Virus record (IMG/VR): IMGVR_UViG_3300038701_000460
Location: 1 to 32,304 of that record
DNA length: 32,304 nt
Source of the DNA: a virus
Strand: one strand, 5' to 3'
Under the pieces are notes generated by a model. The model made no database searches. It worked only from the letters and a program-made list of their open reading frames with translations, and was not told the DNA's origin. The stretch's first letter is position 1. Every line of letters starts with the position of its first letter. Shown piece after piece: positions 13,551 through 30,269 of the stretch. A program made the translations under genes and the position numbers.

Positions 13551-13561
13551 ACTATTAGCTG

Positions 13562-13626: not shown

Positions 13627-13842
13627 ATGCAATCATTACCATCACAATTACTTCCATATCTTCACATTCTGTCTGATAAACAGCGATTACTACTGAACGA
13701 TGTTTACGGTGGTACAACACCGATACCTGTGGTAGACGCATGGCGAAAAAATGATCGTGGGTATGCCCACCGTGAAAACTTCCAGCGTGCGGTTCGTCAG
13801 GCACTTAATAAACTCAATGCACAATATAAGGCGAACAGATAA
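13627..13842 (+). CDS. Small protein of unknown function, first gene of the plus cassette
   Basis: 71 residues, ATG at 13627 behind an AAGGAG site with a normal gap. It begins MQSLPSQLLPYLHILSDKQR and ends with a Lys/Asn/Arg-rich tail, without signal peptide or membrane segment. The central 'GGTTPIPVVDAWRKNDRGY' followed by an Arg/Lys helix is not a domain I recognise; a small nucleic-acid-binding protein would fit the basic C-terminal helix, but that is speculative. The stop TAATG overlaps the start of the exported protein, so translation of the cassette is coupled. Its promoter is probably at 13562-13590. Confidence 0.6.
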   Translation: MQSLPSQLLPYLHILSDKQRLLLNDVYGGTTPIPVVDAWRKNDRGYAHRENFQRAVRQALNKLNAQYKANR

Positions 13843-14575: not shown

Positions 14576-14756
14576 AACCTGTACGTCCTGTGGGGACGTG
14601 CTATCTCCCCACCATTTCTATCGGGATCGTTCTGCTTCGGACGGTCGTACCGCTCGATGTCGTGAGTGCGTCCGTCAGGCGACCACACAGTCGCGTATGT
14701 TCACACCTGCGACTCTCGCACTCGATCCAATCAATCGGTATCTGATGGGGCGCTGA
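14559..14756 (+). CDS. Small zinc-ribbon protein
   Basis: 65 residues from the ATG at 14559, 10 nt after a GGAGGT site and overlapping the nuclease stop. Four cysteines in two CxxC pairs (CTSCGD at 7-12 and CRECVR further on, with HHFYRDRSASDGRT between) make a compact zinc ribbon. This 'KTC..CG......FY.D....DG...RC..C' pattern is common at the N-terminus of HNH or DNA-binding phage proteins, but here nothing further follows except a short tail (DPINRYLMGR). Last gene of the cassette; convergent with the HTH gene, 15 nt away. A nucleic-acid binder or regulator is inferred. Confidence 0.6.
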   Translation: MTGVSKTCTSCGDVLSPHHFYRDRSASDGRTARCRECVRQATTQSRMFTPATLALDPINRYLMGR

Positions 14757-14771
14757 ATGCGCCTCACTCTC

Positions 14772-15308
14772 TTACACCACTAAACCAGCTTTCAACTGGA
14801 ACAATTCATACCAGTGTACCGGCATGTCGCCATAGCTTCGTTCCCAACTGATCCACTGATCCGCTGTGCTGTACACCATTGCACCACACTGATATGCGTC
14901 CAGACCGAGACCACAGCGTACGGTTTTCATCCATGAACCAGACGGACCGTATTTCTTCCTGAAGCCTCTGTGAGACTGTTTCAGACACATTAACTCGAAT
15001 ATCTGATACGGCATTGCCAGCTTACCACGCTCGACATCACGATATGTCTCTGTACCGAGGTGGAGCAGTCGGGACATTTTCTGTATTCCAATATCACGTT
15101 GTATACGAACGGCTTTAACTTGCTCCGCTGTGGGCGTGAGCGATTCCTGATATTCCATTGTGTAAAACGTACTGTGATACGACTCTAAAGTCCTACCTGA
15201 CTGTAACCATTTCATCCTCATGGTGTACATGTCCTTAGTGTTTACTTTTCCTAAATCTGGGTCATCAGGGAACTCATAATAACCGCTTTTTACTATGATT
15301 GTTGTCAT
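14772..15308 (-). CDS. Regulator-like protein with two HTH-like regions
   Basis: 178 residues from the ATG at 15308 (GGAG site). Two XRE-like helix-turn-helix regions can be read in tandem: about residues 55-105 (VKAVRIQRDIGIQKMSRLLH, then TETYRDVERGKL, a usual XRE ending) and about 130-175 (VRCGLGLDAYQCGAMVYSTA, then WISWERSYGDMP). Such a double-HTH protein could bind direct repeats. It is divergent from the recombinase/TerS genes; the region between contains a perfect 14-bp palindrome and several GTTTACT boxes, one of which (15240-15246) lies inside this gene and one (15314-15320) just before its start. So an autoregulator of the control region is likely, but repressor versus activator cannot be told. 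Confidence 0.5.
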   Translation of the reverse strand: MTTIIVKSGYYEFPDDPDLGKVNTKDMYTMRMKWLQSGRTLESYHSTFYTMEYQESLTPTAEQVKAVRIQRDIGIQKMSRLLHLGTETYRDVERGKLAMPYQIFELMCLKQSHRGFRKKYGPSGSWMKTVRCGLGLDAYQCGAMVYSTADQWISWERSYGDMPVHWYELFQLKAGLVV

Positions 15309-15790
15309 AAAGTGTTTACTCCATATAGTCACAGTTTATGTTTCTGACCGCGGTCAGGTATGTTTACTTATGTTATAATGACGGAGATGGCATTTCAACA
15401 TAATTTTTTAGCGGCCCGAAGCCCGAACATTCCCGTATGCGGGCACAGGTGCGGGCCTCTTACTGCCACAAGGGTTTGAGGGCAAAAGTAAACAGAAAAA
15501 GCCCGAACGCTTCCTATTCTGTTCCAGAATGCCCTATAACCGTTTACTTTACCCTCTCTCTCTCTCTTTTATATATATATTATTAGGGATATTAGGGAAG
15601 GTATAAGTAAAAGCCACGTGGTTACTGGCGGCCCGTACGATTCCATTTTCAGGGCTAGGTACGGGTAAGTACGGGCCAAATCGGATTACCAACTGTGAAA
15701 TCAATCACTTAGGTACGGGCTTCGGCGGTCAGGTACGGTGGAGGTGTTTCAAAGTGTTTACTGTGTCCAGCGTGTTCCAAAGTGTTTACT
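15240..15790. repeat. Array of seven GTTTACT / AGTAAAC boxes
   Basis: GTTTACT at 15240-15246, 15314-15320, 15362-15368, 15542-15548, 15756-15762 and 15784-15790, and the reverse (AGTAAAC) at 15487-15493. Seven copies in ~550 bp, far above chance in non-coding DNA. The same heptamer also occurs in the three module promoters (17154, 18442, 18765) and twice at 24460-24486. Longer shared contexts (AGTGTTTACTTTT at 15237 and 15782) suggest that flanks matter too. Confidence 0.6.
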
Positions 15791-15934
15791 TTTGTTTCGG
15801 ATTTTTCGTGCGGAAAATTTTGGTCAAAACGCGGGCTTTCTGAGGTCGATTTCCAGCGCCGACCCCCTGGGGGTGGTAGGTATGCCTTCCCTTTCTTCAA
15901 AAACGCCGTGAGCGGCTTCTCAGGAGGTCTCAGG
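15333..15934. other. Non-coding control region: boxes, palindromes, AT-rich tract, candidate origin
   Basis: About 600 bp with no convincing gene. It holds: a palindrome CTGACCGCGGTCAG (15344-15357); TATAAT at 15374-15379 on plus; a GC-rich stretch with several GCCCGAA and GTACGGGC/GGTACGG motifs (15410-15735); a pyrimidine run then (TA)n and two ATTAGGG (15553-15600), possibly an unwinding element; repeated CAAAGTGTTTACT at 15750-15762 and 15778-15790; and a GC palindrome ACCCCCTGGGGGT around 15861-15875. Together these look like a regulatory hub and perhaps a replication origin or resolution site for the neighbouring recombinase. None of these uses is proved by sequence alone. Confidence 0.45.
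15344..15357. promoter_or_regulatory. Perfect 14-bp palindrome, operator candidate
   Basis: CTGACCGCGGTCAG is its own reverse complement. It lies about 36 bp from the HTH gene start and just before the plus-strand TATAAT at 15374-15379, an ideal place for a repressor dimer controlling both directions. Confidence 0.45.
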
Positions 15935-16519
15935 ATACAATTTGAAGCATATTGTCGTGTATCGACAAACGACCAAGATTATGAACCACAATTGAACACT
16001 ATTAAAAAAGTTTACCTTCAGGCAATTGCACAATGTGAAAAGGTGAGCGGCAAGAAACAATACAGGGACCGGCCAGTCTTGGATAACCTGGTAAAGATCG
16101 CACAACCTGGCGACAAAATCGTAGTGTGGAAACTTGACCGGCTTGCCAGGTCATTAAACGACCTTTTACAATTAGTCGATCTATTCACAATGAAGCAAAT
16201 CGCATTGGAAGTCCTCGACCAACGAATCGATACAAGCACAGCAAGCGGTTTAGCATTTCTTCAAATGTTGGGCGTTTTTGCCGAATTTGAAACAAACCTA
16301 AGAAGCGAAAGACAACGCCAAGGCATTGAAAAAGCGAAAAAAGCGGGTAAGTATAAAGGACGGAAAATTGACACTAATCACGATAAGATTCGTCAATTAT
16401 ATGACAGTGGGTTGTCTAACAATCAGATTGCTCAACAAATGAACATAAGTATCAGCACTGTATACCGAGTGCTGACTCAACGTGATAAAGTATTAAATAA
16501 TGATACCGAGGCGGCATAA
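15935..16519 (+). CDS. Serine recombinase, resolvase/invertase type (apparent AUA start)
   Basis: 194 residues if started at 15935. AYCRVSTNDQ places Arg8 and Ser10 exactly where gamma-delta/Tn3 resolvases have their catalytic pair; further on are VVWKLDRLARSLNDLL, DTSTASGLAFLQMLGVFAEFE and a C-terminal HTH (NNQIAQQMNISISTVYRVL). So this is a full small serine recombinase, not a large serine integrase. No ATG, GTG or TTG lies near; the codon at the right place is ATA, 7 nt behind a perfect AGGAGG (15922-15927). An ATG at 15782 would add 51 residues unlike any recombinase. Jobs could be multimer resolution of a circular genome or inversion of a segment; neither target site is identified. It is followed by TerS-like, with a 1-nt gap. 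Confidence 0.8.
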   Translation: MQFEAYCRVSTNDQDYEPQLNTIKKVYLQAIAQCEKVSGKKQYRDRPVLDNLVKIAQPGDKIVVWKLDRLARSLNDLLQLVDLFTMKQIALEVLDQRIDTSTASGLAFLQMLGVFAEFETNLRSERQRQGIEKAKKAGKYKGRKIDTNHDKIRQLYDSGLSNNQIAQQMNISISTVYRVLTQRDKVLNNDTEAA

Positions 16520-16520
16520 G

Positions 16521-16838
16521 ATGATAGGCAAAGGCAGAGCGACACCAGTTTTAAGAAGCGAACAAAAAAACATATTGAGGCAGTCAGTTGAGGCTAACAA
16601 CTCACTGGAACACATCTTCCATGTGATTAGTCGATTAGAAAATGAACTATTAGAGCCGCAAGAATTCGTACAAGCAAAAGCCGCACTGGACGCACGATTA
16701 AAGCTATTGAATAAATACTTACCGGATATGAAGAGTATCGACCCAAGCGGCCAAGTGGTACTACCCGCGCCGGTGGTGGTAGACGCGGAGCAGTACGAAA
16801 GTATGAGAAGAAGAATGCTAGACGTGGATGACTGTTAA
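16521..16838 (+). CDS. Terminase small subunit-like protein
   Basis: 105 residues from the ATG at 16521, with GAGG 9 nt upstream inside the recombinase end; the ATG at 16500 is poorly placed. The sequence is helical (NSLEHIFHVISRLENELLEP, then AKAALDARLKLLNKYLPDMK) and ends acidic (RRRMLDVDDC). The 'LEPQEF..AK..L.A.LKLLNKYLPD.K..D' phrase is the shape of TerS proteins from small phage families; no classical N-terminal HTH is evident. TerS binds the packaging site and hands the DNA to TerL, which is found 2.9 kb away at 19741. The call is moderate. Its stop shares TTAA with the stop of the opposite-strand gene at 16835. Confidence 0.45.
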   Translation: MIGKGRATPVLRSEQKNILRQSVEANNSLEHIFHVISRLENELLEPQEFVQAKAALDARLKLLNKYLPDMKSIDPSGQVVLPAPVVVDAEQYESMRRRMLDVDDC

Positions 16839-17083
16839 GAACAGTGTAATTTGTACGCTTGTTTAATTAATTCAAGCGTACTTTCGTGACCAAGCACTCC
16901 AAAAATTTCGACATTTATATCTGCGCATAATCCCCAGTCGTAACCACAGTCATTAAAATCAATAGTATCATCGTTGTTAGCACAACATTGAACATCATAT
17001 TCAATACCATCTATTTCAACAATAAAGTTAAAAAAACCCTCGCGTATACCATATTCTCCCACGCCTTCAAATTTAATTTTCAT
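16835..17083 (-). CDS. Small acidic protein of unknown function
   Basis: 82 residues, MKIKFEGVGEYGIREGFFNF onward, with a GAGGTG ribosome site. It is strongly acidic (NNDDTIDFNDCGYDWGLCAD) and has four Cys. No membrane segment, no recognised domain; a DNA-mimic-type inhibitor would be compatible with the charge but there is no further support. It is the only gene of transcription unit A, downstream of the first module (17119-17185), and converges on TerS-like. Confidence 0.55.
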   Translation of the reverse strand: MKIKFEGVGEYGIREGFFNFIVEIDGIEYDVQCCANNDDTIDFNDCGYDWGLCADINVEIFGVLGHESTLELIKQAYKLHCS

Positions 17084-17118
17084 AATGTTACACCTCAGTG
17101 TTGAATTTAACTTGCTCT

Positions 17119-17185
17119 CGTTTCGTTATTTGATGATTGCATCATGCGCTTAAAGTAAACGCTTGTATAGTCATTTTCGGACAAT
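17119..17185 (-). promoter_or_regulatory. Promoter/operator/leader module A
   Basis: Minus strand order: TTGTCCGAAAATGAC (17184-17170), -35 TATACA (17169-17164), 17-bp spacer containing GTTTACT, -10 CATGAT (17146-17141), then AACGAAACG (17127-17119) before the ribosome site of the 82-aa gene. The same layout is found at 18407-18473 and 18730-18807. The left end overlaps the last codons of the upstream gene. Confidence 0.65.
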
Positions 17186-17530
17186 ATGCGCGAATAACTC
17201 TTCAGTTAAACCACCGGCAAGACATTGGTCACGCAATGAATCGACGTGTTTGCTGCGCTTGCGATCTCGCAAGTAACCAAGCGGATTTCTACACGATAAC
17301 GTGACTTCAGCTATCAACCTATTGTGCAAATAAACACGTACCGCCGATGGATAACCAGCACGCCCACTGGTGTTACTAACTCGTACACCAGCGACAGCTA
17401 ACTCATGTTCGACACGCCCTTGATTGATGCGTGCCAGTGCCTCGGCCTCGGTGACATTGTGATCAGCTGCAATAGCCGTTACAGTCAGATAATTATTCAC
17501 ATAGTCCAGATAAAAGTCGCGATTATTCAT
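17171..17530 (-). CDS. Small protein of unknown function, last gene of unit B
   Basis: 119 residues, MNNRDFYLDYVNNYLTVTAI onward. The N-terminal helix pair with 'ADHNVTEAEALARINQGR' could be a small helix-turn-helix; the rest is basic and mixed (CRNPLGYLRDRKRSKHVDSL). No clear domain. Its stop lies in module A, where the shared sequence TTGTCCGAAAATGAC supplies the codons of IVRK and the stop, in a frame different from that used by the 88-aa gene (18452), so the element is conserved for DNA, not protein, reasons. The start overlaps the previous gene stop by 4 nt (coupled). Confidence 0.6.
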   Translation of the reverse strand: MNNRDFYLDYVNNYLTVTAIAADHNVTEAEALARINQGRVEHELAVAGVRVSNTSGRAGYPSAVRVYLHNRLIAEVTLSCRNPLGYLRDRKRSKHVDSLRDQCLAGGLTEELFAHIVRK

Positions 17531-17712
17531 ATGTTACCCTCTACCCTCTTTCTAATCAATTCGAGTGTTTCGCGTTCGCGCTTTTCAACCTGACAAGCAG
17601 CGTGTGCGGTGAACAACTTAGTATAATCCGAAGGTTTACCGCCGTATTTTTTCGCGCGTTCTTTAGCGCTTGGTGTTAAAATAATTTTTTTACCGCAGAT
17701 AGTACAATTCAT
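17527..17712 (-). CDS. Small zinc-finger-like protein
   Basis: 61 residues, MNCTICGKKIILTPSAKERA onward. CxxC (3-6) with a later His-x-x-Cys (HAAC, about residues 37-40) would bind one zinc; the C-terminal third is a charged helix (EKRERETLELIRKRVEG). Such tiny treble-clef-like proteins in early phage operons usually bind nucleic acid or act as antirestriction/transcription modifiers; nothing here is decisive. It begins behind GGGGGT and is coupled by ATGA overlap to the 29-aa ORF before and by 4 nt to the next gene. Confidence 0.6.
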   Translation of the reverse strand: MNCTICGKKIILTPSAKERAKKYGGKPSDYTKLFTAHAACQVEKRERETLELIRKRVEGNI

Positions 17713-17798
17713 GCGTTACCCCCTACCCACTTATAAAAGTGCGTTTCAGTCATTGGTTCATTTGATGGGTTCAATACTAACAATTCGCTTGCTTTCAT
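17709..17798 (-). CDS. 29-aa ORF between RadC-like and zinc-finger genes
   Basis: ATG at 17798, 2 nt after the RadC-like stop, reading MKASELLVLNPSNEPMTETH and ending WVGGNA. GAGG lies inside the end of the preceding gene, slightly far. It ends with an ATGA overlap with the 61-aa gene, the typical coupling of this operon, which is the main reason to believe it. No similarity recognised. Confidence 0.4.
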   Translation of the reverse strand: MKASELLVLNPSNEPMTETHFYKWVGGNA

Positions 17799-17800
17799 AT

Positions 17801-18238
17801 CTACAATAACCCTCTTTCAGCAAAGCTCATGCTATCCAGTTTTGAAACGATGAGATGATCAAGTAGCGCTATATCGAGAAGCCTGCAAGCGTCCTCAACG
17901 CGTTTAGTCAATTGTATATCCGCTTCACTCGGTTCAATTGATCCGCCAGGGTGGTTGTGACTGATAATAATCGCTTTAGCATTATTCAATAATGCGACTT
18001 TCACTATTTCACGCGGGTAAACGCTTGCACCATCAATGGTCCCAGTGAACATACGTTCCGCTTTGATTAGTTTGTGTTGAGTATCTAAAAAAGCAACCTC
18101 AAACACTTCCACCTCTTCAAAACCTATGCGTAGTCGAAAATAGTCTTTCGCGTCACAACATCGAGTGAATGACGCTTCACTTTTAATATACGTGTTTTCA
18201 ATTTCTTTAATCGCCGCTTTAATTAATTCTCTGTTCAT
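17801..18238 (-). CDS. RadC/JAB-MPN domain protein
   Basis: 145 residues, a full RadC-type domain. Metal site: Glu47 (FEVAFLDTQ), His94 and His96 (SHNHPGGS at 93-100), Asp107; the JAMM motif H-x-H-x(10)-D is intact. The N-terminal ~40 residues are charged and not the usual HhH of bacterial RadC, so this is the short plasmid/phage form (YeeS-like). The JAB fold suggests a metalloprotease-like or nuclease activity; RadC itself has no settled function. In phages it may act on host or defence proteins (inference). It is preceded by two tiny ORFs and followed by others, all in unit B. Confidence 0.8.
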   Translation of the reverse strand: MNRELIKAAIKEIENTYIKSEASFTRCCDAKDYFRLRIGFEEVEVFEVAFLDTQHKLIKAERMFTGTIDGASVYPREIVKVALLNNAKAIIISHNHPGGSIEPSEADIQLTKRVEDACRLLDIALLDHLIVSKLDSMSFAERGLL

Positions 18239-18239
18239 C

Positions 18240-18317
18240 TCACATCACCCCATTAACAATAAATTCTGCTGAAACAATCAGCACCAATACAAACAACATT
18301 TTTACATTGTCGCTCAT
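18240..18317 (-). CDS. 25-aa single-membrane-segment peptide
   Basis: ATG at 18317, behind GAGAGG with an 8-nt gap, encoding MSDNVKMLFVLVLIVSAEFI and ending VNGVM. Residues 7-20 are a hydrophobic helix long enough to span a membrane. It overlaps the previous ORF by ATGA (18314-18317) and ends just before the RadC-like start (18238). Candidate small membrane protein (holin-like, pump inhibitor or regulator of host protein); function unknown. Confidence 0.5.
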   Translation of the reverse strand: MSDNVKMLFVLVLIVSAEFIVNGVM

Positions 18318-18394
18318 GCGCCTAACCTCTCACTTATACTGTGGTCGATTGTATAACCAGCCCGAACACACAAATCAAAAATTGCAATTTCCAT
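18314..18394 (-). CDS. 26-aa ORF, first gene of unit B
   Basis: ATG at 18394 behind GGGGA, after the AACGAAACG box of module B. It reads MEIAIFDLCVRAGYTIDHSI and ends SERLGA, then overlaps the next ORF by ATGA. Could be a leader peptide controlling the rest of unit B or a real small protein. No similarity recognised. Confidence 0.4.
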   Translation of the reverse strand: MEIAIFDLCVRAGYTIDHSISERLGA

Positions 18395-18406
18395 AATTAA
18401 TGTCCC

Positions 18407-18473
18407 CGTTTCGTTATTTGATGATTCCATTATGCGCTCAAAGTAAACGGTTTACAAGTCATTTTCGGACAAT
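18407..18473 (-). promoter_or_regulatory. Promoter/operator/leader module B
   Basis: Minus strand: TTGTCCGAAAATGAC (18472-18458), -35 TTGTAA (18457-18452), 17-bp spacer, -10 CATAAT (18434-18429), AACGAAACG (18415-18407). The spacer has the perfect odd palindrome GTAAAC-C-GTTTAC (13 bp, 18443-18455), the cleanest operator candidate of the three modules. The -35 overlaps the TAA stop of the 88-aa gene. Confidence 0.7.
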
Positions 18474-18718
18474 TTTGCGTAGGTAGCAAATTGCTTTTTG
18501 ATGTCTGACAGATTAGAGAAATACTCGATCTTGGCTATTTTACCGCATGACAAACGGTAACCAACTTTATAGTCGCCAATAGCCAGGCGCTTGACTATAA
18601 CAGTCTTAACGCCGATAGCATTGTCGTACTTGTCGGAAGTGGCGCACATATACGGAACTAATACTGATTCTTCTTTTAGTAGCTTTGCTGTTAGCTTGCT
18701 GGCATTCAATGTTCTCAT
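18452..18718 (-). CDS. Small protein of unknown function (unit C)
   Basis: 88 residues from an ATG at 18718 behind GAGGG, MRTLNASKLTAKLLKEESVL onward; ends KLSENDL in module B DNA. It is basic with alternating hydrophobics (NAIGVKTVIVKRLAIGDYKV), a small mixed fold; no cysteine ribbon, no membrane segment. The pattern 'VLVPY..ATSD.Y...IGVKT.I.KRL.IGDY' hints at a beta-barrel RNA/DNA-binding protein, but I do not recognise the family. Its promoter is module C (18730-18807). Confidence 0.6.
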   Translation of the reverse strand: MRTLNASKLTAKLLKEESVLVPYMCATSDKYDNAIGVKTVIVKRLAIGDYKVGYRLSCGKIAKIEYFSNLSDIKKQFATYAKLSENDL

Positions 18719-18729
18719 GATGTTTCCCT

Positions 18730-18807
18730 CGTTTCGTTATTCGATGAGTCAATTATGCGCTTAAAGTAAACGCTTATCAACACTAATTTCGGTCATTTTC
18801 GGACAAA
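18730..18807 (-). promoter_or_regulatory. Promoter/operator/leader module C
   Basis: Minus strand: TTGTCCGAAAATGAC (18806-18792), a 12-bp stretch absent from the other modules, -35 TTGATA (18780-18775), 17-bp spacer with AAGCGTTTACTTTAAGCG, -10 CATAAT (18757-18752), AACGAAACG (18738-18730). Best -35/-10 pair of the three, so probably the strongest. Confidence 0.7.
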
Positions 18808-18878
18808 TTACACTCATAAGCAGATAGTAACGATAACTGTATATAGATAGTGTGAATTACCAGGACGATCGGTACCAG

Positions 18879-18938
18879 CCAGATTGCCAGATTGCCAGAT
18901 TGCCAGATTGCCAGATTGCCAGATTGCCAGATTGCCAG
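18879..18938. repeat. Octamer tandem array (CCAGATTG)x7
   Basis: Seven perfect copies starting at 18879, 18887, 18895, 18903, 18911, 18919 and 18927, plus a partial CCAG. The unit is not a multiple of three. It lies in the non-coding stretch between module C and the HNH gene. It may be an iteron array or a terminase/replication protein binding site, or simply a slippage-grown repeat. Confidence 0.85.
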
Positions 18939-19042
18939 CGGGTCGTTAAAAATCAACAACTTAGCTTGATCTGGATCAACTCGAACCAAAAAACCGGACT
19001 TCAATCCTCGGGTGCACGAAACCAGAAAACCCCTCCCGTACC

Positions 19043-19118
19043 GTGTCAGAGTGGAAAACCAAAATACCCCACCTACATTGTGTCAGAGTGGAAAACCCGC
19101 CAGGTGTATGTTAGAGTG
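19043..19118. repeat. Direct repeats GTGTCAGAGTGGAAAACC
   Basis: Two identical 18-mers (19043-19060, 19080-19097; start-to-start 37 bp) and a degenerate third (TGTTAGAGTG, 19109-19118, 28 bp further). Spacing of about 3-3.5 helical turns suggests protein binding on one DNA face. Confidence 0.75.
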
Positions 19119-19187
19119 TGACCATCGAGGATAGGTTTAGCGACTGAACAACATCAACGGTAGATGTCTTCCTCGATCATTTCAATA

Positions 19188-19204
19188 CCGATAATCTTTA
19201 TCGG
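19188..19204 (+). promoter_or_regulatory. Hairpin overlapping the HNH ribosome site
   Basis: CCGATAA-TCT-TTATCGG (19188-19204): 7-bp stem, 3-nt loop. Its right arm runs into GGAGA (19203-19207), the ribosome site for the ATG at 19214, so folding should reduce HNH translation. Confidence 0.45.
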
Positions 19205-19213
19205 AGATTAGTT

Positions 19214-19738
19214 ATGATCACACAGCAAGAATTGAAATCCCTTTTACATTACGACCCCGTGACTGGCGTGTTCACATGGTTGCCTCGTCAATCGAAAAGT
19301 TTTAACACTCAGAAAGCAGGTAAAGAAGCTGGAACGATTAAGGTTCAGGGGAGACATGAGTGCCGTAGAATCAACGTGGGCGGTAAACTCTACTACGCCC
19401 ATCGACTGGCATGGTTATACGTTCACGGTAAATTTCCTGACGATGAAATTGATCATATTAATGGTAACGCTCTTGATAACAGAATGATTAACATGCGCGA
19501 TGTGAGTAAAGTGGAAAATTGCAGGAATATGCCACACCGAAGTGCGAGTAATTCTAAATTACTAGGAGTTACTTGGAACAATCAATACTCCATGTGGAAG
19601 GTTCAGATAGCCGACCGACATCCCACCCGTAAAGGCAGAAAGTTTATTGGTCATTTTCGAGACTTTTTCGAAGCATGTTGCGCCCGTAAACGTGCTGAAT
19701 TATTCTATAACTATCACCCTAACCACGGTAGACCGTAG
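19214..19738 (+). CDS. HNH endonuclease with AP2-like C-terminus
   Basis: 174 residues. HNH motif: HRLAWLYVHGKFPDDEIDHI at 63-82 followed by NGNALDNRMINMRDVSKVEN; DH at 80-81 and Asn89 are the key residues of the beta-beta-alpha-metal fold. The C-terminal 60 residues (LLGVTWNNQYSMWKVQIADR, KFIGHFRDFFEACCARKRAE) look like an AP2-type DNA-binding domain, which is typical of free-standing homing endonucleases. It ends 2 nt before TerL. HNH proteins beside terminase can also take part in cos cleavage; the AP2 tail favours a homing enzyme. Translation is probably held down by the 19188-19204 hairpin. Confidence 0.85.
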   Translation: MITQQELKSLLHYDPVTGVFTWLPRQSKSFNTQKAGKEAGTIKVQGRHECRRINVGGKLYYAHRLAWLYVHGKFPDDEIDHINGNALDNRMINMRDVSKVENCRNMPHRSASNSKLLGVTWNNQYSMWKVQIADRHPTRKGRKFIGHFRDFFEACCARKRAELFYNYHPNHGRP

Positions 19739-19740
19739 CA

Positions 19741-21225
19741 ATGGACGAACAATCATTAGTGATTCGTGCGCGTAAGCATGAGTGTGAACACGATGGAATA
19801 TATTTCAATCGGTTCTTCTTCAAACAGATATTCGGTAACAAGATGATCATCAACGATCATCACGAAGCGTTGCAATCAGCGTTAGACCGCACGATGTTAC
19901 CGCCGTCCGATCCAGATTTTATCCCACGGTTGATTGTGACCATACCGCCAGGCTACGGTAAAACGCTCCAAGCGGTGATACATTACATGGCCCGTGGCAT
20001 GGCAATGGATGCGCGAAATCGATTCCTGCACCTCTCATATTCATCCACACTTGCCATCCAGAACAGTGCGAGCGTCAGGGAACTCATTAAGTCAAAAGCA
20101 TTTCAAGAGATGTGGCCTGTCACTACCAAAGAAGATACGGACAGTAAGTCCCTATGGTGGACGGAAGAAATGGGTGGTGTCTATGCAACGTCCAGTGCGG
20201 GCCAGGTAACAGGTTTCCGTGCTGGTCACATGAATAGCGAACGGTTCACGGGGGCATTGATTATCGATGACCCGTTGAAACCTGACGATGCTTACTATGA
20301 AACGAAGCGAGAAGCAATTAACAACCGATTCAACGAAACCATAGCCTCGCGTCTAGCCGTGGAGACCGTACCCATCATTGTGATTATGCAGCGTATACAC
20401 TGGCACGATCTCGTAGGATATTTGCTGCATGGTGGATCAGGTGAACAGTGGCACCATCTCGACATGCCTGTAGTCGTGGATAATCAAAGTACGTACCCTG
20501 AAGAATACACCCACGGTATACCACTGGCACACGGTTTACCGAATGGATGGCTTTGGTCCATGAAGCATGACGACCGTAACGCTGTGGCCCTCAGATCACA
20601 CCGCAGGAAGTTTGCCGCACAGTACATGCAGCGACCGATGCGCAGAAACGAAGAGACGGCCCTGTGGCGTGAAGAAGTGCTTAATATGGCACGTTTGGAC
20701 GTGTTCGACTCAGTGCAGCGTACGGTGGTGTCTGTGGACCCCGCAGTATCGAATAATGATACCAGTGATATGCACGGTATTATGGTGTGCTCCCGTCACG
20801 GTGATAATATGTATACGGTGGACGCTGACTATACCCGACATGGTTCCCCGCAGGATTGGGCGAACACGGCTATTCAGGTGTATGAAAATCACACGGCCGA
20901 CGCCATCGTGATCGAAACGAATCAGGGCGGCGACATGTGTGAACAGACGTTACGGAACGCTGGTTTCACAGGTAGGATCATCAGGGTCCACGCTGCTAAA
21001 GGTAAGATTGCACGTGCTGAACCGATTGCTGCATTATATGAACAAGGATTTGTTAAGCATCACCCAGGGTTGGACGACTTGGAAACTGAGATGCTTGACC
21101 TCGATCCGATCAGTGGTAAGTCAGGTGGTAAGTCCCCCAACCGTGTCGATGCGTTGGTGTGGGGGATGACTCAGTTGTCACAGGGTATGGAGATGAATGA
21201 ATTGTTACGATTGGTGGTGGGTTAG
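19741..21225 (+). CDS. terL: Terminase large subunit (packaging ATPase-nuclease)
   Basis: 494 residues. ATPase: Walker A PPGYGKT at 69-75, Walker B GALIIDDP at 171-178, coupling region IVIMQRIH at 213-220. Nuclease (RNase H-like): first acidic residue in VVSVDPAVS (Asp333), Glu392 in IVIETNQGG, Asp470 in SPNRVDALVW. FAAQYMQRP at 291-299 is the usual linker. All expected motifs are intact and the length is normal. It starts 2 nt after the HNH stop, with no strong ribosome site, so it depends on coupling from HNH. It is far from portal and on the opposite strand, unlike the usual TerS-TerL-portal order. TerL drives DNA into the head and cuts the concatemer. Confidence 0.92.
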   Translation: MDEQSLVIRARKHECEHDGIYFNRFFFKQIFGNKMIINDHHEALQSALDRTMLPPSDPDFIPRLIVTIPPGYGKTLQAVIHYMARGMAMDARNRFLHLSYSSTLAIQNSASVRELIKSKAFQEMWPVTTKEDTDSKSLWWTEEMGGVYATSSAGQVTGFRAGHMNSERFTGALIIDDPLKPDDAYYETKREAINNRFNETIASRLAVETVPIIVIMQRIHWHDLVGYLLHGGSGEQWHHLDMPVVVDNQSTYPEEYTHGIPLAHGLPNGWLWSMKHDDRNAVALRSHRRKFAAQYMQRPMRRNEETALWREEVLNMARLDVFDSVQRTVVSVDPAVSNNDTSDMHGIMVCSRHGDNMYTVDADYTRHGSPQDWANTAIQVYENHTADAIVIETNQGGDMCEQTLRNAGFTGRIIRVHAAKGKIARAEPIAALYEQGFVKHHPGLDDLETEMLDLDPISGKSGGKSPNRVDALVWGMTQLSQGMEMNELLRLVVG

Positions 21226-21444: not shown

Positions 21445-21674
21445 ATTAACCTCGCTTTCGGCAATGACGCGTCGATCTGAATGTCATGCACAACGTAGTC
21501 ACGCTGGTCGCCGATACGGTCTAACTGGCACAGTCCAACATTCACACTGTGGATATTTAACCCCGTGGATTGATGCAATTCGCTGAGTTTACCTTGAATC
21601 TGATCGACCACTGCGAGAAATATCTCTCGTTCACACGCCCTGATTGCATCGCTTAACTCTTGTGCTTTACTCAT
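21441..21674 (-). CDS. Small protein of unknown function (helical)
   Basis: 77 residues, MSKAQELSDAIRACEREIFL onward: an amphipathic helical N-terminal half followed by mixed strand (LNIHSVNVGLCQLDRIGDQR, DYVVHDIQIDA). Proteins of this shape (an N-terminal 'EL.DAI..CE..I...V...I...L..L...TGL.I..V.V' phrase) recur in early phage regions without known role. Coupled at both ends by 4-nt overlaps (start with the Tad2-like stop, stop with the next start). Confidence 0.55.
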   Translation of the reverse strand: MSKAQELSDAIRACEREIFLAVVDQIQGKLSELHQSTGLNIHSVNVGLCQLDRIGDQRDYVVHDIQIDASLPKARLI

Positions 21675-22069
21675 ATTAACCTCGCTTTACCGTTGTTTAA
21701 TTTCTGTACGGTGGACTCCAATTTATTCCGACGACTCTCAGGAAAATATGTAGCATTCATGACACGTAGATTCTGCGTTGAATCCACGTAATATTCCTCA
21801 TCGTCATACACTATGAATAAATTATGTTCACCCCATTGGAATTCGTAATCACTGGTTAACTCGATCTCTTCGACGTAAGGTCGCCAGTTATATTGACTCA
21901 TTTCTGACGAATTGACCCCACGTGATGCGCAACCGTTGTCGTTGTCGATAACCATGATTATTAACCCGTGATCATTCATGTGAATGGTTTTACCGTCTCT
22001 CCACTCAGGTAAATGATACGGTTTGTTTCGGTTCTTGCGCATTTCCGCTAATGCTTCTTCAAATTTCAT
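21671..22069 (-). CDS. Tad2-like (DUF2829) protein, candidate anti-defence sponge
   Basis: 132 residues. The opening MKFEEALAEMRKNRNKPYHL is the DUF2829/Tad2 pattern (FEEAL..M..GK...RP.W), followed by HMNDHGLIIMVIDNDNG and YNWRPYVEEIELTSDYEFQW. Tad2 proteins bind and sequester cyclic-ADPR-type and some cyclic nucleotide signals made by Thoeris and CBASS defence (established knowledge); whether this one does is inference. It is longer than the ~80-110 residue core, with a ~35-residue C-terminal extension of unknown role. First real gene of the operon: promoter at 22163-22191 and a 20-aa leader ORF coupled to its ATG (ATGA). Confidence 0.55.
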   Translation of the reverse strand: MKFEEALAEMRKNRNKPYHLPEWRDGKTIHMNDHGLIIMVIDNDNGCASRGVNSSEMSQYNWRPYVEEIELTSDYEFQWGEHNLFIVYDDEEYYVDSTQNLRVMNATYFPESRRNKLESTVQKLNNGKARLI

Positions 22070-22128
22070 AACACTTTGCTCCCGCTCTGAGCATTGCCGT
22101 GACCTGTTCTCATTATTGTAGGATTCAT
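22066..22128 (-). CDS. 20-aa leader peptide before the Tad2-like gene
   Basis: ATG at 22128, 9 nt behind GGAG (part of AACGAAACGGAG), encoding MNPTIMRTGHGNAQSGSKVL, stop TGA overlapping the ATG of the Tad2-like gene. Excellent ribosome site and perfect ATGA coupling suggest a translated leader that sets the translation of the anti-defence candidate. Confidence 0.5.
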   Translation of the reverse strand: MNPTIMRTGHGNAQSGSKVL

Positions 22129-22162
22129 TTACTTCTGCTCCGTTTCGTTTAAGTGAGGTTAG

Positions 22163-22191
22163 ATGTTATTCTATGCTGACGACGATGTCAA
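22163..22191 (-). promoter_or_regulatory. Promoter for the leader/Tad2-like operon
   Basis: Minus strand: TTGACA (22191-22186), 17-bp spacer, TAACAT (22168-22163). It shares CATAGAATAA before the -10 with the promoter at 24487-24515, and an AACGAAACG box follows downstream. Confidence 0.6.
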
Positions 22192-22193
22192 CA

Positions 22194-22298
22194 CTAAATT
22201 TCATAATAATTATCCACTACTGTTAATTTTGCCGGTCTGACTAAATCCATTAGACCATCTTCAAGTCTGATGAAAATCGCGTACGTACCCATCGACAT
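22194..22298 (-). CDS. 34-aa ORF
   Basis: ATG at 22298 (alternative at 22292), reading MSMGTYAIFIRLEDGLMDLV and ending PAKLTVVDNYYEI. It overlaps the preceding 32-aa ORF by 38 nt in another frame, so one of the two may be spurious; this one has the more protein-like composition but a weak ribosome site. Last ORF of the operon that starts at 24457. Confidence 0.4.
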   Translation of the reverse strand: MSMGTYAIFIRLEDGLMDLVRPAKLTVVDNYYEI

Positions 22299-22359
22299 TA
22301 CAGTCGTCCGGTGAGATAACTTTAACCACTGACTTACCGTCTGGTACACCTACTATCAT
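22261..22359 (-). CDS. 32-aa ORF after the DUF5675 gene
   Basis: ATG at 22359 overlaps the DUF5675 stop (ATGA) and has an excellent GGAGGTGATC site just before, encoding MIVGVPDGKSVVKVISPDDC and ending VRDFHQT. Its coupling and ribosome site support translation. No similarity recognised. Confidence 0.45.
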   Translation of the reverse strand: MIVGVPDGKSVVKVISPDDCNVDGYVRDFHQT

Positions 22360-22805
22360 CTGATCACCTCCAAAGTTACCCGTAAACCACTCACAATTGC
22401 TTCATATACTCGCGGATATAATTCACAGTAAGCAGGGCGCGAACGACTGATACGACCTCCACGGTGGGTATCAATCACCCCCGTACCTACTAAAATGCAA
22501 CCGCTGGTATCACCGTCCGTATTTCCAGTGTGGAAATACACCCATTCAAATCCAGGTATGTCACGTATCCACAACATTCCGTCATGATTAAGGTCGCGGT
22601 ACGCTCGATCATAGCGTTTCGCCATTGGTGAACCACGTCTCAGCGTGATCTCATATTCACCCGCTGGAATACGTGTCTCGCCTGTTACTTTACCGCCAGC
22701 CTGCGCCTGATCTTCAAGGGTGAAGCATTGGAACACGTCATCAATGTATAACGCTCCCATGCTGGCGTCAGGCCCATTATTGATCGTTGCTAGTGTTAGT
22801 TTCAC
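22356..22805 (-). CDS. DUF5675 family protein
   Basis: 149 residues from a GTG at 22805, which follows GGGAGGG by 10 nt; the longer frame to 22907 has no good start. The family pattern is clear: FTLEDQAQAGGKVTGETRIP, AGEYEITLRRGSPM, then HDGMLWIRDIPGFEWVYFHT, and GNTDGDTSGCILVG. The family resembles the L,D-transpeptidase/peptidoglycan-enzyme-like fold with a 'H.GN...DT.GCILVG' motif containing a Cys (and a His) that may be catalytic. It could be the endolysin-like or a cell-wall active protein; it lacks signal peptide. No holin is recognised next to it, so the lysis role is inference. It overlaps the upstream gene by 29 nt. Confidence 0.65.
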   Translation of the reverse strand: MKLTLATINNGPDASMGALYIDDVFQCFTLEDQAQAGGKVTGETRIPAGEYEITLRRGSPMAKRYDRAYRDLNHDGMLWIRDIPGFEWVYFHTGNTDGDTSGCILVGTGVIDTHRGGRISRSRPAYCELYPRVYEAIVSGLRVTLEVIR

Positions 22806-23025
22806 GGTCGATACCCTCCCGTTGTGAATGGAGTTGTAAAGCACGTTTGGCACTCGAATTAATATCGAGCAAGTCTTCAAGGTCGTCCTTGTGACCGCGC
22901 TGGCCACATGCTAATGCTTTTTTAACGAGGTGCTGCAATGCTGGGCAAGTGACGTTGAACGCATTCAACACGTCATAAACGTCAACCTGCACCCCTGGTT
23001 TAATTGTTCTATGGTACTTACTCAT
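22777..23025 (-). CDS. Small phage protein of unknown function
   Basis: 82 residues from the ATG at 23025 (AAAGG site), 1 nt after the previous stop. MSKYHRTIKPGVQVDVYDVL, then AFNVTCPALQHLVKKALACG and QRGHKDDLEDLLDINSSAKR. This 'Y....PG..VDVYDVL.AF.V.CPA.QHA.KKLL..GQRGHKD...DL' phrase is very widespread in phage genomes of Gram-negative hosts and is normally annotated hypothetical; it looks like a small helical protein. The C-terminal tail (REGIDRETNTSNDQ) overlaps the DUF5675 start. I do not know its role. Confidence 0.7.
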   Translation of the reverse strand: MSKYHRTIKPGVQVDVYDVLNAFNVTCPALQHLVKKALACGQRGHKDDLEDLLDINSSAKRALQLHSQREGIDRETNTSNDQ

Positions 23026-23026
23026 A

Positions 23027-23218
23027 TTACGCATACCTTTTAGGTTTGATAGGTTCCCAATCATTGAATGACACCTCAATCAGCGCCAGCATCTGAAAAA
23101 GTTTATTACCGTCTTGGTCAACAATACTATCGGGGTTAGACCTGTCCCAGTATTTACCGGCATCCCATGCTTTTCGTCTTAATTTATTGTACTTTTTTGG
23201 TACTTCTGAATAAATCAT
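23027..23218 (-). CDS. Small protein of unknown function
   Basis: 63 residues, MIYSEVPKKYNKLRRKAWDA onward, ending WEPIKPKRYA. Basic and Trp/Tyr-rich, with the acidic middle DSIVDQDGNKL. No recognised domain. Its ATG overlaps the stop of the 48-aa zinc-ribbon gene (ATGA at 23215-23218), and its stop lies 1 nt before the next start, so it is in the middle of a tightly coupled operon. Confidence 0.5.
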   Translation of the reverse strand: MIYSEVPKKYNKLRRKAWDAGKYWDRSNPDSIVDQDGNKLFQMLALIEVSFNDWEPIKPKRYA

Positions 23219-23361
23219 ATCGTTCTCTTCTGTCCTGGTTCTAATGGGTTAGGTATTTTTAACTTACAATCGTTACAGATTTTGAGATTCTGCGAATTGA
23301 GCCTGACGAGCGGCCCGTTACACTTAGGGCAAGTTGAATTTCCATTTTGCATTTCCGACAT
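23215..23361 (-). CDS. 48-aa zinc-ribbon protein
   Basis: ATG at 23361 with a strong GGGAG site (7-nt gap), stop at 23215 overlapping the next start. Sequence MSEMQNGNSTCPKCNGPLVR, then LNSQNLKICNDCKLKIPNPL and EPGQKRTI: CPKC...CNDC with a GP/LxPGQK tail, typical of small phage zinc ribbons. It overlaps the 60-aa ribbon gene (23259..23441) by about 100 nt in another frame, so the same DNA encodes two different proteins. Confidence 0.7.
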   Translation of the reverse strand: MSEMQNGNSTCPKCNGPLVRLNSQNLKICNDCKLKIPNPLEPGQKRTI

Positions 23362-23441
23362 ACGTTTGCTCCCACTATTTTAATTCCGTTGCCGCACCGT
23401 TCGCACGGTTCCATGTGACGATTACGCTCGTCGCATTTCAT
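23259..23441 (-). CDS. 60-aa zinc-ribbon protein overlapping the 48-aa one
   Basis: MKCDERNRHMEPCERCGNGI, then VGANVCRKCKMEIQ: CxxC (13-16) and CxxC (29-32). The first ~35 residues look like a genuine ribbon; the last ~25 (SVTGRSSGSIRRISKS) look like an out-of-frame reading of the other gene. Starts: 23441, overlapping the upstream gene end by 20 nt with weak ribosome site, or 23414. So this may be a short real ribbon with a random tail, possibly a duplicate of the following gene. Confidence 0.5.
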   Translation of the reverse strand: MKCDERNRHMEPCERCGNGIKIVGANVCRKCKMEIQLALSVTGRSSGSIRRISKSVTIVS

Positions 23442-23748
23442 ACCATGTCACCTCGCTAACTTCGTCACACATGTTCACTATGACCTGCTCAATACCTTTT
23501 TCATCGGTGGTGATGAATGTATCGTCTGATTCAGGATGGTGCCAAAACAACAACACCGGCACATCTCGCTCACCTCTCGTATAAGCCGCATAAGCGTTAT
23601 GCAACTCCATGTGATCAGGCGTGAGATTAGCAATCGTTCTGATTCGATCCGCTTCAGTAGAACCTGCACGGTACACACTTGGATCGTCTGACATGTGGTA
23701 GAACCAATCATGTTGAATCATTAGTCGATGGAATTCACTGAGTTTCAT
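23422..23748 (-). CDS. Phage protein of unknown function
   Basis: 108 residues, MKLSEFHRLMIQHDWFYHMS onward, with DDPSVYRAGSTEADRIRTIA, then LHNAYAAYTRGERD and a hydrophobic segment PVLLFWHHP. The 'HDW.Y.MSDDP.V...G..E..R...IA' phrase is widespread in phage early regions beside DUF2829 proteins; no function is known to me. Soluble, no cysteine ribbon. Starts with a 4-nt overlap on the Tad2-like gene. Confidence 0.6.
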   Translation of the reverse strand: MKLSEFHRLMIQHDWFYHMSDDPSVYRAGSTEADRIRTIANLTPDHMELHNAYAAYTRGERDVPVLLFWHHPESDDTFITTDEKGIEQVIVNMCDEVSEVTWYEMRRA

Positions 23749-24263
23749 AATACGACTCTCCCGCTGTTGAGGTCTTTACAGAGTTGTTCTGCTACACGCT
23801 TGGGCATGAGAATTGTGTCTGGTAACTGGTGTCCTAGAGGTACAGTAGTCCACACCCATATTCCATTGTGAAAAATCTTCGCGTTACATTCCTCAGCAGG
23901 GTCGCTATGCTCATCCACATAAGCCAACAGTCGGTTAAACGTGCGCATTTTGTCGCGGGCGGCTTCGGCTTGTTCTTTGCTTGATCGCTCACTACCAAAC
24001 TGGCTCCATGCTGGACTTCGAGTGCTTGGGAAAATAGTGCCGTCACCGCCTATACACCAATAACCACCTTTTGGTTCCCACTCTTGTTCTTCGTAGATTT
24101 CCCAGTCATTATCTAGGATGTTATCAAGCATTCCCCCAAAATCGATCCCGTCTTCATCAATGAAGGTGTTTCTTTCTATGCACACGTAACAACCTTTTCG
24201 CCATCTCGGAAGTCTAACCTTCTTACCTTCCCGCATAGCGGTCAACGCTTCTTCAAATTTCAT
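23745..24263 (-). CDS. Tad2-like (DUF2829) protein with C-terminal extension, second copy
   Basis: 172 residues. N-terminal ~62 residues are a good DUF2829/Tad2 pattern: MKFEEALTAMREGKKVRLPR, WRKGCYVCIERNTF, then MLDNILDNDWEIYEEQ. The C-terminal ~110 residues are a separate module: YWCIGGDGTIFPSTRSPAWS, then KEQAEAARDKMRTFNRLLAY and VDEHSDPAEE, known from many phage hypothetical proteins. So it is a fusion. The first part would be the signal-sequestering part if it acts like Tad2 (inference). Overlaps both neighbours by 4 nt. Paralogous to the 21671..22069 gene by its start (MKFEEAL..M) but much diverged. Confidence 0.6.
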   Translation of the reverse strand: MKFEEALTAMREGKKVRLPRWRKGCYVCIERNTFIDEDGIDFGGMLDNILDNDWEIYEEQEWEPKGGYWCIGGDGTIFPSTRSPAWSQFGSERSSKEQAEAARDKMRTFNRLLAYVDEHSDPAEECNAKIFHNGIWVWTTVPLGHQLPDTILMPKRVAEQLCKDLNSGRVVL

Positions 24264-24459: not shown

Positions 24460-24515
24460 GTTTACTCCTCTGTCCAGTTAGTAAACAGTTTATTCTATGT
24501 TGCCGTACTTGTCAA
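24460..24515 (-). promoter_or_regulatory. Promoter and GTTTAC operator of the KorA-like operon
   Basis: Minus strand: TTGACA (24515-24510), 17-bp spacer, TAAACT (24492-24487), then GTTTAC (24486-24481) and GTAAAC (24465-24460), an inverted pair 15 bp apart across the start of transcription. The promoter lies over the end of the primase gene. Confidence 0.6.
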
Positions 24516-26813
24516 CAGTGGATTTTCGCCTTGTGCAGCTTCATATCCACGAATGATGTTATCCATTCCTGTGAGCATTGCCGCTGGATGGTCACGCTTG
24601 ACGTATAACCGTGGTTTGCCTTGTTCACTCATTATTATGCGTGACACACGACCTTCACTGAGTCCAGGATGGTAATCGTAACCAAGAGAGCGCATCACCT
24701 CTCTACGCTTGTTTAACGCTGGCTGCATCCCTCTCGGTAACGACTCGATTAATTCATTGAGCGCCATGCTTGATACCCAACCACCACGGAAACCCTTGCG
24801 GCCTTCGCCGATTGCTTCCAGAACTTGCTGTTCAACGCCACCGAGAGAATACTCGATTGCTTCGTCCGTGCTACTGGTTTTCGGCGCACGATGACAATGC
24901 GTGGCAGGATTAAATTCATCTTTAATCGGGTAAGTTGCCAGAAATTCGTGAACATGCGCGGCACCGTTCTGAGAGCGCAACCAGTGGTAAATATTCGGGA
25001 AAAAATCGCCAGTCATACCATCCCTTGCGAGGTCTTCCTCGGCTTGCTGCGCGGTGAATACCATAGCGAATCGTCGATCATTAGCTGTCTTCCTGATTGC
25101 ATCCTTGTGATTACTATTGAGCAGGAAATTAGCACGATTATCGGTCATGATCTGGTCACGGCCCTTGGCTTGGACCTCCAACATGTCGTTACTGATCATC
25201 GGTTTCAACACTTCGATCACTTCCTGTTTGTGACCAGGCACATACACGTCTTCCACGTAGACCAGTAATTTACCGTATATCCACGCATTGAAGGCGTTAG
25301 CGAGATCGTTAGAACTGGCAGAATGTACGAATTTTTTACCCAGTACCATCGTCATTAGATGACTGAAAAACGTCTTACCGTTACCTTCGACTCCTTGCAG
25401 CAATGGTGCCCAAGGGAATTTAACACCCTTGTATTGAACCATTGCTGCCAGAAACGATATGTATATTTCACGGTCTATCTCATTCGGCATTAATTTATGT
25501 AACAGCGTGAGGAATATTTGAACGTCACCTTTGGCGCGAGGCGTGACCACGGGAATGTAGGTGTTGACCAATCGTCTACCGTCGTTCTCTTGAATCAGTC
25601 CGCCAGGTGTTAAATCTGGTCTAAAACATGTGCTATGTGCTATCGGTCTACGGATTAACTGCGATTCTGTGAACGCTTCGAACGGTTTCTTGGTCGTCTT
25701 ATTCTGGTAGTCAATGGCAAACGAGTAGCCACCATACGAAGCGTTAAACTGTTCTGGTTTAAGTAACGACCCTTCCGGCGTGAATATCCTGTGAATATCC
25801 TGTACATAATAGCACCCGTTGAAATGTTCTAACTGTTGCGGTACACCAAGGAATTGAAAATCGCTGACCACTTGCGGTTCGTTTGTTTCGTTTAGCTTAA
25901 CAGGTTCAACACCCTGACCGTATACCCGATCACACAATGAAACGGACTTTAATATCGTACGGTGGAGGTAGTCTTCACGATCCCATTTGTCACGTTTTAG
26001 GCTGGAACGCAGCATTATTCGTTTGATCCGGTCGCAGTTCTTACCTGTCCACCACGCTAAGTGTGATGCCATTGCAGCATCGGCGCTTGATGCATCATTA
26101 TTGCACCCTGATATATCACCTTTCCACAGGTCTGCAAACGTCGCTTTAGTCCCGAACGCTGCGGCTGCGGATTTCGTTTCACAGGCTTTAGCAAGTAACT
26201 GATCGTCGTCAGTGATCCCGTTCCATTCTGGTACTGGTGCGGTTGTCCACTGAGACATGTCCATTGCGCCACCCTGTACGGTGGACGGGAAATACGTCCC
26301 CACCACTTGTGACAGGTCGCTCACAGTGCTCGCATCACCAATACTGTTCACGCCAGATAACATGATGAAGCGGTCACTGGTGTACATTTCAAGGTTTAGA
26401 GCGGTATTTTTACAAGCGTGTTCAGGAGGCTCCCCTGTGTACATACCAAACACATGTAATCCGGTCAGTGATTGAGACACTTCCACCGCTGCACCAGGTA
26501 ACATGTTAAGGACATTATTTGCTACGTCCGACCACCCCGTCTCGACACGACAATTATCAATGTCAACACAATAAAAAGGATCATTATTTGTAAGAACAAA
26601 TCCAATTCGATACTCATCTGACAAGTTTGACAAAAGTTCGACAACTTCATTAAATTCCATCCAATTATTATTATCGTATGCACTACCTGGCGCTAAAGTC
26701 GCAGGGTTTAATGGCACTTTATCCGCTTTACCGCTGTCACGTGTGATTATTTTACAGACGATAAATTGCTTGTACGCTGACAGTGGTGCCAGCGCGTCCG
26801 GTAGGTGCTGCAT
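24495..26813 (-). CDS. Primase-polymerase/helicase (VapE-/NrS-1-like)
   Basis: 772 residues, start at 26813 behind GGGG. Residues 1-210: primase-polymerase-like domain with the metal-binding DID (84-86 in FYCVDIDNCR). Residues ~225-290: helix-bundle segment (DISGCNNDASSADAAMASHL, then KRDKWDREDYLHRTILKS) as in NrS-1 polymerase. Residues ~430-600: superfamily 3-like ATPase with Walker A GVEGNGKT (474-481), Walker B LLVYVEDVY (516-524), sensor-like NFLLNSNHKDA (562-572) and NDRRFAMVF (578-586). So it can probably prime and unwind DNA. Preceded 4 nt upstream by the TetR-like gene and in one operon with it. Main replication protein of the window. Confidence 0.85.
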   Translation of the reverse strand: MQHLPDALAPLSAYKQFIVCKIITRDSGKADKVPLNPATLAPGSAYDNNNWMEFNEVVELLSNLSDEYRIGFVLTNNDPFYCVDIDNCRVETGWSDVANNVLNMLPGAAVEVSQSLTGLHVFGMYTGEPPEHACKNTALNLEMYTSDRFIMLSGVNSIGDASTVSDLSQVVGTYFPSTVQGGAMDMSQWTTAPVPEWNGITDDDQLLAKACETKSAAAAFGTKATFADLWKGDISGCNNDASSADAAMASHLAWWTGKNCDRIKRIMLRSSLKRDKWDREDYLHRTILKSVSLCDRVYGQGVEPVKLNETNEPQVVSDFQFLGVPQQLEHFNGCYYVQDIHRIFTPEGSLLKPEQFNASYGGYSFAIDYQNKTTKKPFEAFTESQLIRRPIAHSTCFRPDLTPGGLIQENDGRRLVNTYIPVVTPRAKGDVQIFLTLLHKLMPNEIDREIYISFLAAMVQYKGVKFPWAPLLQGVEGNGKTFFSHLMTMVLGKKFVHSASSNDLANAFNAWIYGKLLVYVEDVYVPGHKQEVIEVLKPMISNDMLEVQAKGRDQIMTDNRANFLLNSNHKDAIRKTANDRRFAMVFTAQQAEEDLARDGMTGDFFPNIYHWLRSQNGAAHVHEFLATYPIKDEFNPATHCHRAPKTSSTDEAIEYSLGGVEQQVLEAIGEGRKGFRGGWVSSMALNELIESLPRGMQPALNKRREVMRSLGYDYHPGLSEGRVSRIIMSEQGKPRLYVKRDHPAAMLTGMDNIIRGYEAAQGENPLLTSTAT

Positions 26814-29567: not shown

Positions 29568-30269
29568 ATGGAACTCACACTGAAAGATTTAACACCTGAA
29601 CAAGTTATCAAGATCGCTGAATTTATGCGAGGTGATACGGTTACACCATTGAATGAACCCACGCAAGATGAAGTTAAAGCGGTGACTGATTCAATACCGG
29701 ACGCAACACCTGAGCTAGTTGAACCGACCGCTGCGGAAGTGTTCACGCAGGAAGTATTAACCGAACCTGAAGTACCAGCAACCGAGCCCGAGCCTGTTAC
29801 ACCAGCACCAGACGACAACGGTCTTGATGCGGCTGGTATTCCTTGGGACGAGCGTATTCACAGTAGTAGCAAGGCTAAAACCGTGAAAGGCGTTTGGAAG
29901 AAACGTAAAGGTTTACAGGCTCACATTTACGATGCTGTCATGGCCGAACTCACTGGTAAACCAGCACCAGCACCAGCACCAGCACCAGCACCAGCACCAG
30001 CACCAGCACCAGCACCAGCACCAGCACCAGCACCAGCACCAGCAGACAACGTGGTCACAATGGCTGCTCCTGCTCCGGCTGAACCCGTGGCTGAACCTGC
30101 TCCGGCTGGACTAACGTTGCCTGAAATTATGATGCGTGTAACCAGCGGCCAAGTTGATCAGGCGACAGTCATGAACACGTTAGCTAAACACGGACTTAAA
30201 TCTATCGCCATGCTCGGTGCGCGACCTGATTTAATTCCTGTGATCAGCAAGGAGTTATTCAATGAGTGA
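29568..30269 (+). CDS. Pro/Ala-rich phage protein (repeat-linker type)
   Basis: 233 residues, start at 29568 behind GAGGT. N-terminal ~85 residues are acidic and Thr/Glu-rich; residues ~85-120 hold DAAGIPWDERIHSSSKAKTV followed by KGVWKKRKGLQ, a phrase that recurs in phage recombination/ssb operons; then a Pro-Ala run (14 PA from a hexanucleotide array), then a compact C-terminal ~55 residues (LTLPEIMMRVTSGQVDQATV). It resembles a two-domain adaptor joined by a long flexible linker. It overlaps the DUF2800 start by 8 nt. Role unknown, probably in DNA replication/recombination with the next two genes. Confidence 0.65.
   Translation: MELTLKDLTPEQVIKIAEFMRGDTVTPLNEPTQDEVKAVTDSIPDATPELVEPTAAEVFTQEVLTEPEVPATEPEPVTPAPDDNGLDAAGIPWDERIHSSSKAKTVKGVWKKRKGLQAHIYDAVMAELTGKPAPAPAPAPAPAPAPAPAPAPAPAPAPADNVVTMAAPAPAEPVAEPAPAGLTLPEIMMRVTSGQVDQATVMNTLAKHGLKSIAMLGARPDLIPVISKELFNE
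29961..30044 (+). repeat. (CCAGCA)x14 coding repeat
   Basis: Fourteen consecutive hexamers give a Pro-Ala linker of 28 residues. Perfect copies imply recent slippage and length variation between relatives. Confidence 0.9.

Follow-up and report, generated by a model that had tools for sequence, protein, structure and literature searches.

Paralogous phage proteins combining a reduced Tad2-like domain with a probable shared C-terminal module

Introduction

Tad2 is a phage protein that sequesters bacterial alarm signals. Does a phage protein that begins like Tad2 also act like Tad2, or may it have kept the fold and lost the function? The question is raised by two ORFs, here named A and B, of IMG/VR virus record IMGVR_UViG_3300038701_000460, a 32.3 kb sequence classed as linear, the 32,304 nucleotides of which are referred to as the window. 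Its terminase is approximately 57% identical to those of phages of Klebsiella, Cronobacter, Pseudomonas and Vibrio. Protein A (132 aa; 21671..22069) begins with MKFEEALAEMRKNRNKPYHLPEW and protein B (172 aa; 23745..24263) with MKFEEALTAMREGKKVRLPRW; both ORFs are found exactly where the original prediction, made from the sequence of the window, had placed them, and both lie on the minus strand.

Results

Proteins A and B resemble each other and are conserved as a pair

The local alignment of A with B scores 69, the maximum obtained with 5000 shuffles of B being 61, or 44 when the N-terminal parts alone are compared (5000 shuffles), and the N-terminal likeness of the two proteins is thus above chance. 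It had been anticipated that a Tad2/DUF2829 profile would recognize both proteins. In Pfam, PF11195 (Tad2-like) matches B at 25.3 bits, barely over the cut-off of 25 and across residues 1-38 only, and A has no match to PF11195 or any other Pfam family. B also matches PHROG 6670 (2.8e-7) and PHROG 3474 (1.6e-6), and the PHROG search with A gave no strong match. Among annotated phages no match to A was found and B returned two weak matches, both N-terminal; nothing relevant was found in NCBIfam, no meaningful match was obtained when PDB sequences were searched directly with either protein, and none was found in plasmids.

A diverged phage contig (L002) encodes orthologues of both proteins, each 35-36% identical to its counterpart, which shows that the pair is conserved. 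The L002 genes are adjacent and overlapping (3597-4004 and 4001-4483), in an operon next to the terminase. PF11195 matches the L002 orthologue of B from end to end of the domain, at 34.6 bits (protein residues 1-61 and profile positions 1-72), and that of A is matched weakly over a similar range (15.6 bits, E 0.024; residues 1-61, profile positions 1-71). Seven phages with related terminases contain an orthologue of neither A nor B.

The N-terminal domains belong to a short type of Tad2-like domain

Tad2-like relatives, which were gathered partly by means of an MKFEEAL pattern, fall into canonical Tad2, exemplified by SPO1 gp34.65, and a short type. Short-type proteins (PHROG 3474 and PHROG 6670; L017 and L018; the N-terminal domains of L012-L015, L024 and PHROG 1048) have the same length and motifs as the N-terminal domains of A and B; these relatives are standalone or fused to a canonical Tad2, whereas A and B continue into a beta-beta-alpha module, described below. 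Standalone short-type proteins of 58-60 aa occur without any added module. In the tandem proteins L012-L015 and L024 the short-type domain comes first and the canonical Tad2 second, this second half matching solved Tad2, AcrIIA7, SptTad2 and ModTad2. Tandem proteins of this kind (L012 5001-5495, L013-L015, L024, L044-L057) were observed in Lachnospiraceae genomes and prophages, and the protein is found in many genomes of Lachnospiraceae and other Clostridia. Because these tandem proteins place it ahead of a canonical Tad2, the short type is taken to be of the same family as real Tad2.

To place A and B, a short-type HMM was built from other short-type domains, with A, B and L002 left out. Its top four matches among 1175 ORFs are B (5e-16), the L002 orthologue of B (4e-12), the L002 orthologue of A (5e-6) and A (1e-5). 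By profile comparison the short type matches canonical Tad2 at 98%, B matches canonical Tad2 at 97% and the short type at 99%, and A matches the short type at 97%, its match to canonical Tad2 being weak (38%) and limited to the first 12 residues; the C-terminal DW end of the domain aligns as well. A and B therefore share an N-terminal domain of the short-type Tad2-fold family, at 21872..22069 in A and 24090..24263 in B, both on the minus strand.

The ORF at 23027-23218 (minus strand, 63 aa) gives a fifth and weaker match to the same HMM (E 0.0012), which improves to E 6e-6 once B and its L002 orthologue join the model (hhalign 92%). It lacks the FEEAL helix motif, and may represent a third short-type domain, and thus a further paralogue.

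In a survey of 196 Clostridia genomes the B profile gave 1 match and PF11195 was present in 2 genomes, with no further fusion; a first scan of genome contigs with B gave no match, and neither did a scan of viral contigs by patterns taken from the canonical Tad2 of SPO1, a result due to the narrowness of those patterns.

Predicted structures align best to solved Tad2 proteins

AlphaFold2 models of A and B were compared to the PDB with Foldseek and VIA-align. The model of A has a mean pLDDT of 69.8 (about 62-90 in the N-terminal domain) and that of B a mean of 56.6 (about 58-87 in the N-terminal domain and below 60 in the tail). With Foldseek, the best PDB matches of A are all Tad2, SPO1 Tad2 being first (probability 1.00, E 0.08), and 8wje_A is the sole plausible match of B (probability 0.91). 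With VIA-align, residues 1-66 of A, compared with residues 5-89 of SPO1 Tad2 and with ModTad2, HgmTad2/AcrIIA7 and SptTad2, give Z 8.3-9.2, at an rmsd of 1.7-2.0, with every Tad2 entry listed (SPO1 Tad2: Z 9.2, rmsd 1.8, 64 residues), versus 4.4 for the next unrelated chain; residues 1-58 of B give Z 6.7-7.8, the highest value again being that to SPO1 Tad2 (residues 5-89), versus 2.5 for the next unrelated chain. The models thus support a Tad2 fold for both N-terminal domains, with the qualification that the alignments from which they were computed contain short-type Tad2-like rows, so that fold and sequence evidence are not entirely separate.

The predicted topology is the same as that of Tad2 (SPO1 gp34.65, 8SME/8SMF; ModTad2, 9EIB; HgmTad2/AcrIIA7, 8KBI; SptTad2, 8WJD; PF11195), with which A and B have in common an N-terminal helix carrying F.EAL, a conserved W and a C-terminal strand with (D/N)W. 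The view of A and B as two diverged Tad2-like N-terminal domains, each followed by extra C-terminal sequence, is accordingly supported.

The C-terminal regions are probably the whole and the half of one phage module

The search for relatives of the C-terminal regions began from an artificial consensus of a phage protein family with motifs such as GNVFKTKEEAE, which served as bait only; the module profile itself consists of 19 sequences from other phages, namely the real proteins retrieved by the bait together with 12 viral loci. Against this profile the tail of B aligns over 101 columns with a score of 32 (shuffle maximum 21; 0/200 shuffles), and the tail of A aligns in the second half only, over 43 columns, with a score of 26.4 (shuffle maximum 17.7; 0/200). 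When the corresponding HMM was run with HMMER on 1175 ORFs, the scores were modest, and B (9e-4, ranking first), A (0.16) and the L002 orthologue of A (0.32) were the only ORFs below E = 1.

There is thus a fair case, resting on these alignments, that the tail of B (about residues 60-172; 23748..24086, minus strand) is a complete two-unit beta-beta-alpha phage module, which is unnamed and has no Pfam match. The match in A covers the second unit and not both, and suggests that its tail (about residues 70-131) is a single beta-beta-alpha unit corresponding to the second half of that module. The link between the two C-termini runs solely through the larger, 19-sequence profile: direct comparison gave no signal, either pairwise or as two-sequence profiles, and an earlier, smaller module profile linked B and gave no signal for A. 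The C-terminal additions are nevertheless probably not unrelated, and the idea that each copy carries a different one gives way to a whole (B) and a half (A) of one phage module.

The same unnamed module, with which B aligns over both units, is present in Aerococcus phage vB_AviM_AVP (AVP_27-29), in Stenotrophomonas phage BUCT702 and in IMG/VR loci L076-L084. Most of these proteins have a coiled-coil-like N-terminus followed by the module, whereas A and B have the Tad2-fold domain first; relative to them, B has lost the detail of the GNVFKT motif and A the whole first unit. In the Aerococcus phage (L071, 304-1672) the three module proteins AVP_27-29 are arranged in tandem, as a lineage-specific expansion. 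One further locus, L086, was considered as an independent fusion of a Tad2-like domain to the module on account of a similar-looking N-terminus ending in EWETYKE, and was rejected as its HMM match was not significant.

A segment that helps to form the known Tad2 pockets appears to be missing

The N-terminal domains of A and B measure 58-66 residues, as compared to about 85 in SPO1 Tad2. In the structural alignments 64 of the 85 SPO1 Tad2 residues have a partner in A and 58 of the 85 in B, leaving 21 and 27 unmatched, respectively. As judged by sequence, this gap lies after the MFLFLK-type strand and before the IIFIKT-type strand, and it would correspond to the stretch between Tad2 strands 2 and 5, the strand numbers having been mapped onto the sequence by inference and not from structure coordinates. 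This location bears on function: the gcADPR pocket of Tad2 is formed partly by loop b3-b4 and strand b4, and cyclic dinucleotides are bound by an insertion between b2 and b5 (review, PMC12043709). The canonical signature W..SQ.D..A.DW is also absent from A and B, the corresponding region reading WVPSQTDVLAEDW in SPO1 Tad2 and WLASQADMLAEDW in the C-terminal domain of L012, versus GVNSSEMSQYNW in A and GGMLDNILDNDW in B. Canonical Tad2 is 20-27 residues longer than the A and B domains and has both the strand 2-5 stretch and the signature, while A and B have the additional C-terminal module.

As both segment and signature are missing, the likeness of A and B to Tad2 speaks for the fold and not for binding of the known kind. 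For want of the pocket-forming segment, it is unlikely that A and B sequester gcADPR or cyclic dinucleotides in the classical Tad2 manner by way of the known pocket. The original prediction that A and B sequester Thoeris or CBASS signals is hence not supported, and neither is the suggestion of different ligands, given that the two C-terminal additions have the look of one module in two variants.

A and B could still be true nucleotide-signal sponges if they formed an assembly like the homotetramer of Tad2 that binds a Thoeris, CBASS or other nucleotide signal, and if the C-terminal module stood in for the absent pocket segment. Such a reading would agree with the predicted Tad2 fold of both proteins, with the retention of part of the strand 1-2 loop region (W..GK in A), with the fusion of short domains to canonical Tad2 in Lachnospiraceae and with the range of signals bound by Tad2 relatives, SPO1 Tad2 binding gcADPR and ModTad2 His-ADPR (PMC13299392). 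It is considered unlikely in view of the absent strand 2-5 stretch and signature, and of the standalone short-type proteins, whose existence implies that the module cannot generally replace the pocket segment.

Genomic neighbourhood of A and B

A and B belong to a series of short genes, many of them overlapping, that extends from the primase (24495-26813), which flanks their operon, to the terminase (19741-21225, plus strand), which is convergent to it; a zinc-ribbon ORF is present in the operon. Relative to L002, B has been shifted upstream in the operon of the window, and A has kept its place before the terminase side. Two minus-strand regions, 22194-22361 and 23245-23441, look as if split by frameshifts and correspond to single ORFs in L002 (a 71-aa protein and the zinc-ribbon protein, respectively); the split reflects either real decay or an assembly error.

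The operon next to the primase and its zinc-ribbon ORF would suit an alternative in which A and B are small regulatory or DNA/RNA-associated phage proteins that use the Tad2 fold as a scaffold only and have no defence role. The L002 orthologue of B (E 0.001) and the short-type protein L017 (4.5e-4) moreover match phrog_643, labelled as a transcriptional regulator. That match is weak, though, and the label is an annotation only, and no DNA-binding motif is found in A or B with Pfam or PHROGs, which makes this alternative quite improbable.

Elsewhere in the window, the portal in the region 12150-21225 is encoded on the minus strand, but an HNH endonuclease and the terminase are encoded on the plus strand. 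Genes for a resolvase/invertase (15782-16519) and for a RadC/JAB protein (17801-18238) separate the portal from these two, a layout that suggests a rearranged or inserted block. At 18878-18938, 7.6 perfect tandem copies of an 8-bp unit (GCCAGATT) have the RadC-side genes on one side and the HNH/terminase genes on the other. Two further perfect tandem repeats lie inside ORFs, one of 6 bp (ACCAGC, 14 copies) at 29960-30044 and one of 9 bp (CGGCACCAG, 11 copies) at 31974-32074.

Discussion

The weakest explanation, namely that A and B are not Tad2 relatives and have in common by chance or convergence a mere MKFEEAL start, is already disfavoured and very remote, for although the Pfam match is confined to residues 1-38 in B and is lacking in A, and the relatives were picked partly by that pattern, the L002 orthologue of B scores 34.6 bits against PF11195 with its domain fully covered, the alignment takes in the C-terminal DW end and the fold comparison sets Tad2s clearly apart from unrelated chains.

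On balance, the reading towards which we lean, with modest confidence, is that A and B are paralogous accessory phage proteins that join a reduced Tad2-fold scaffold to a phage module, plausibly for host takeover or counter-defence. The short Tad2-fold domain would then act as a compact platform that associates with itself and displays the C-terminal module, a role that we infer. The accessory operon as a whole is likely used to the same ends. In a more specific version, which we regard as doubtful, the conserved paralogue pair (possibly a trio) would leave the known pockets of the reduced Tad2 fold unused and would rely on its modular C-terminus to capture either a protein of the host defence or some other signal.

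The label Tad2-like or DUF2829 is given to many phage proteins solely on the strength of an N-terminal motif. If the signal pocket is lacking in the short type, this label should not imply anti-Thoeris function, and the A/B pair, with its L002 orthologues, offers a concrete case in which a reduced Tad2 fold may serve either to bind another ligand or as a mere scaffold.
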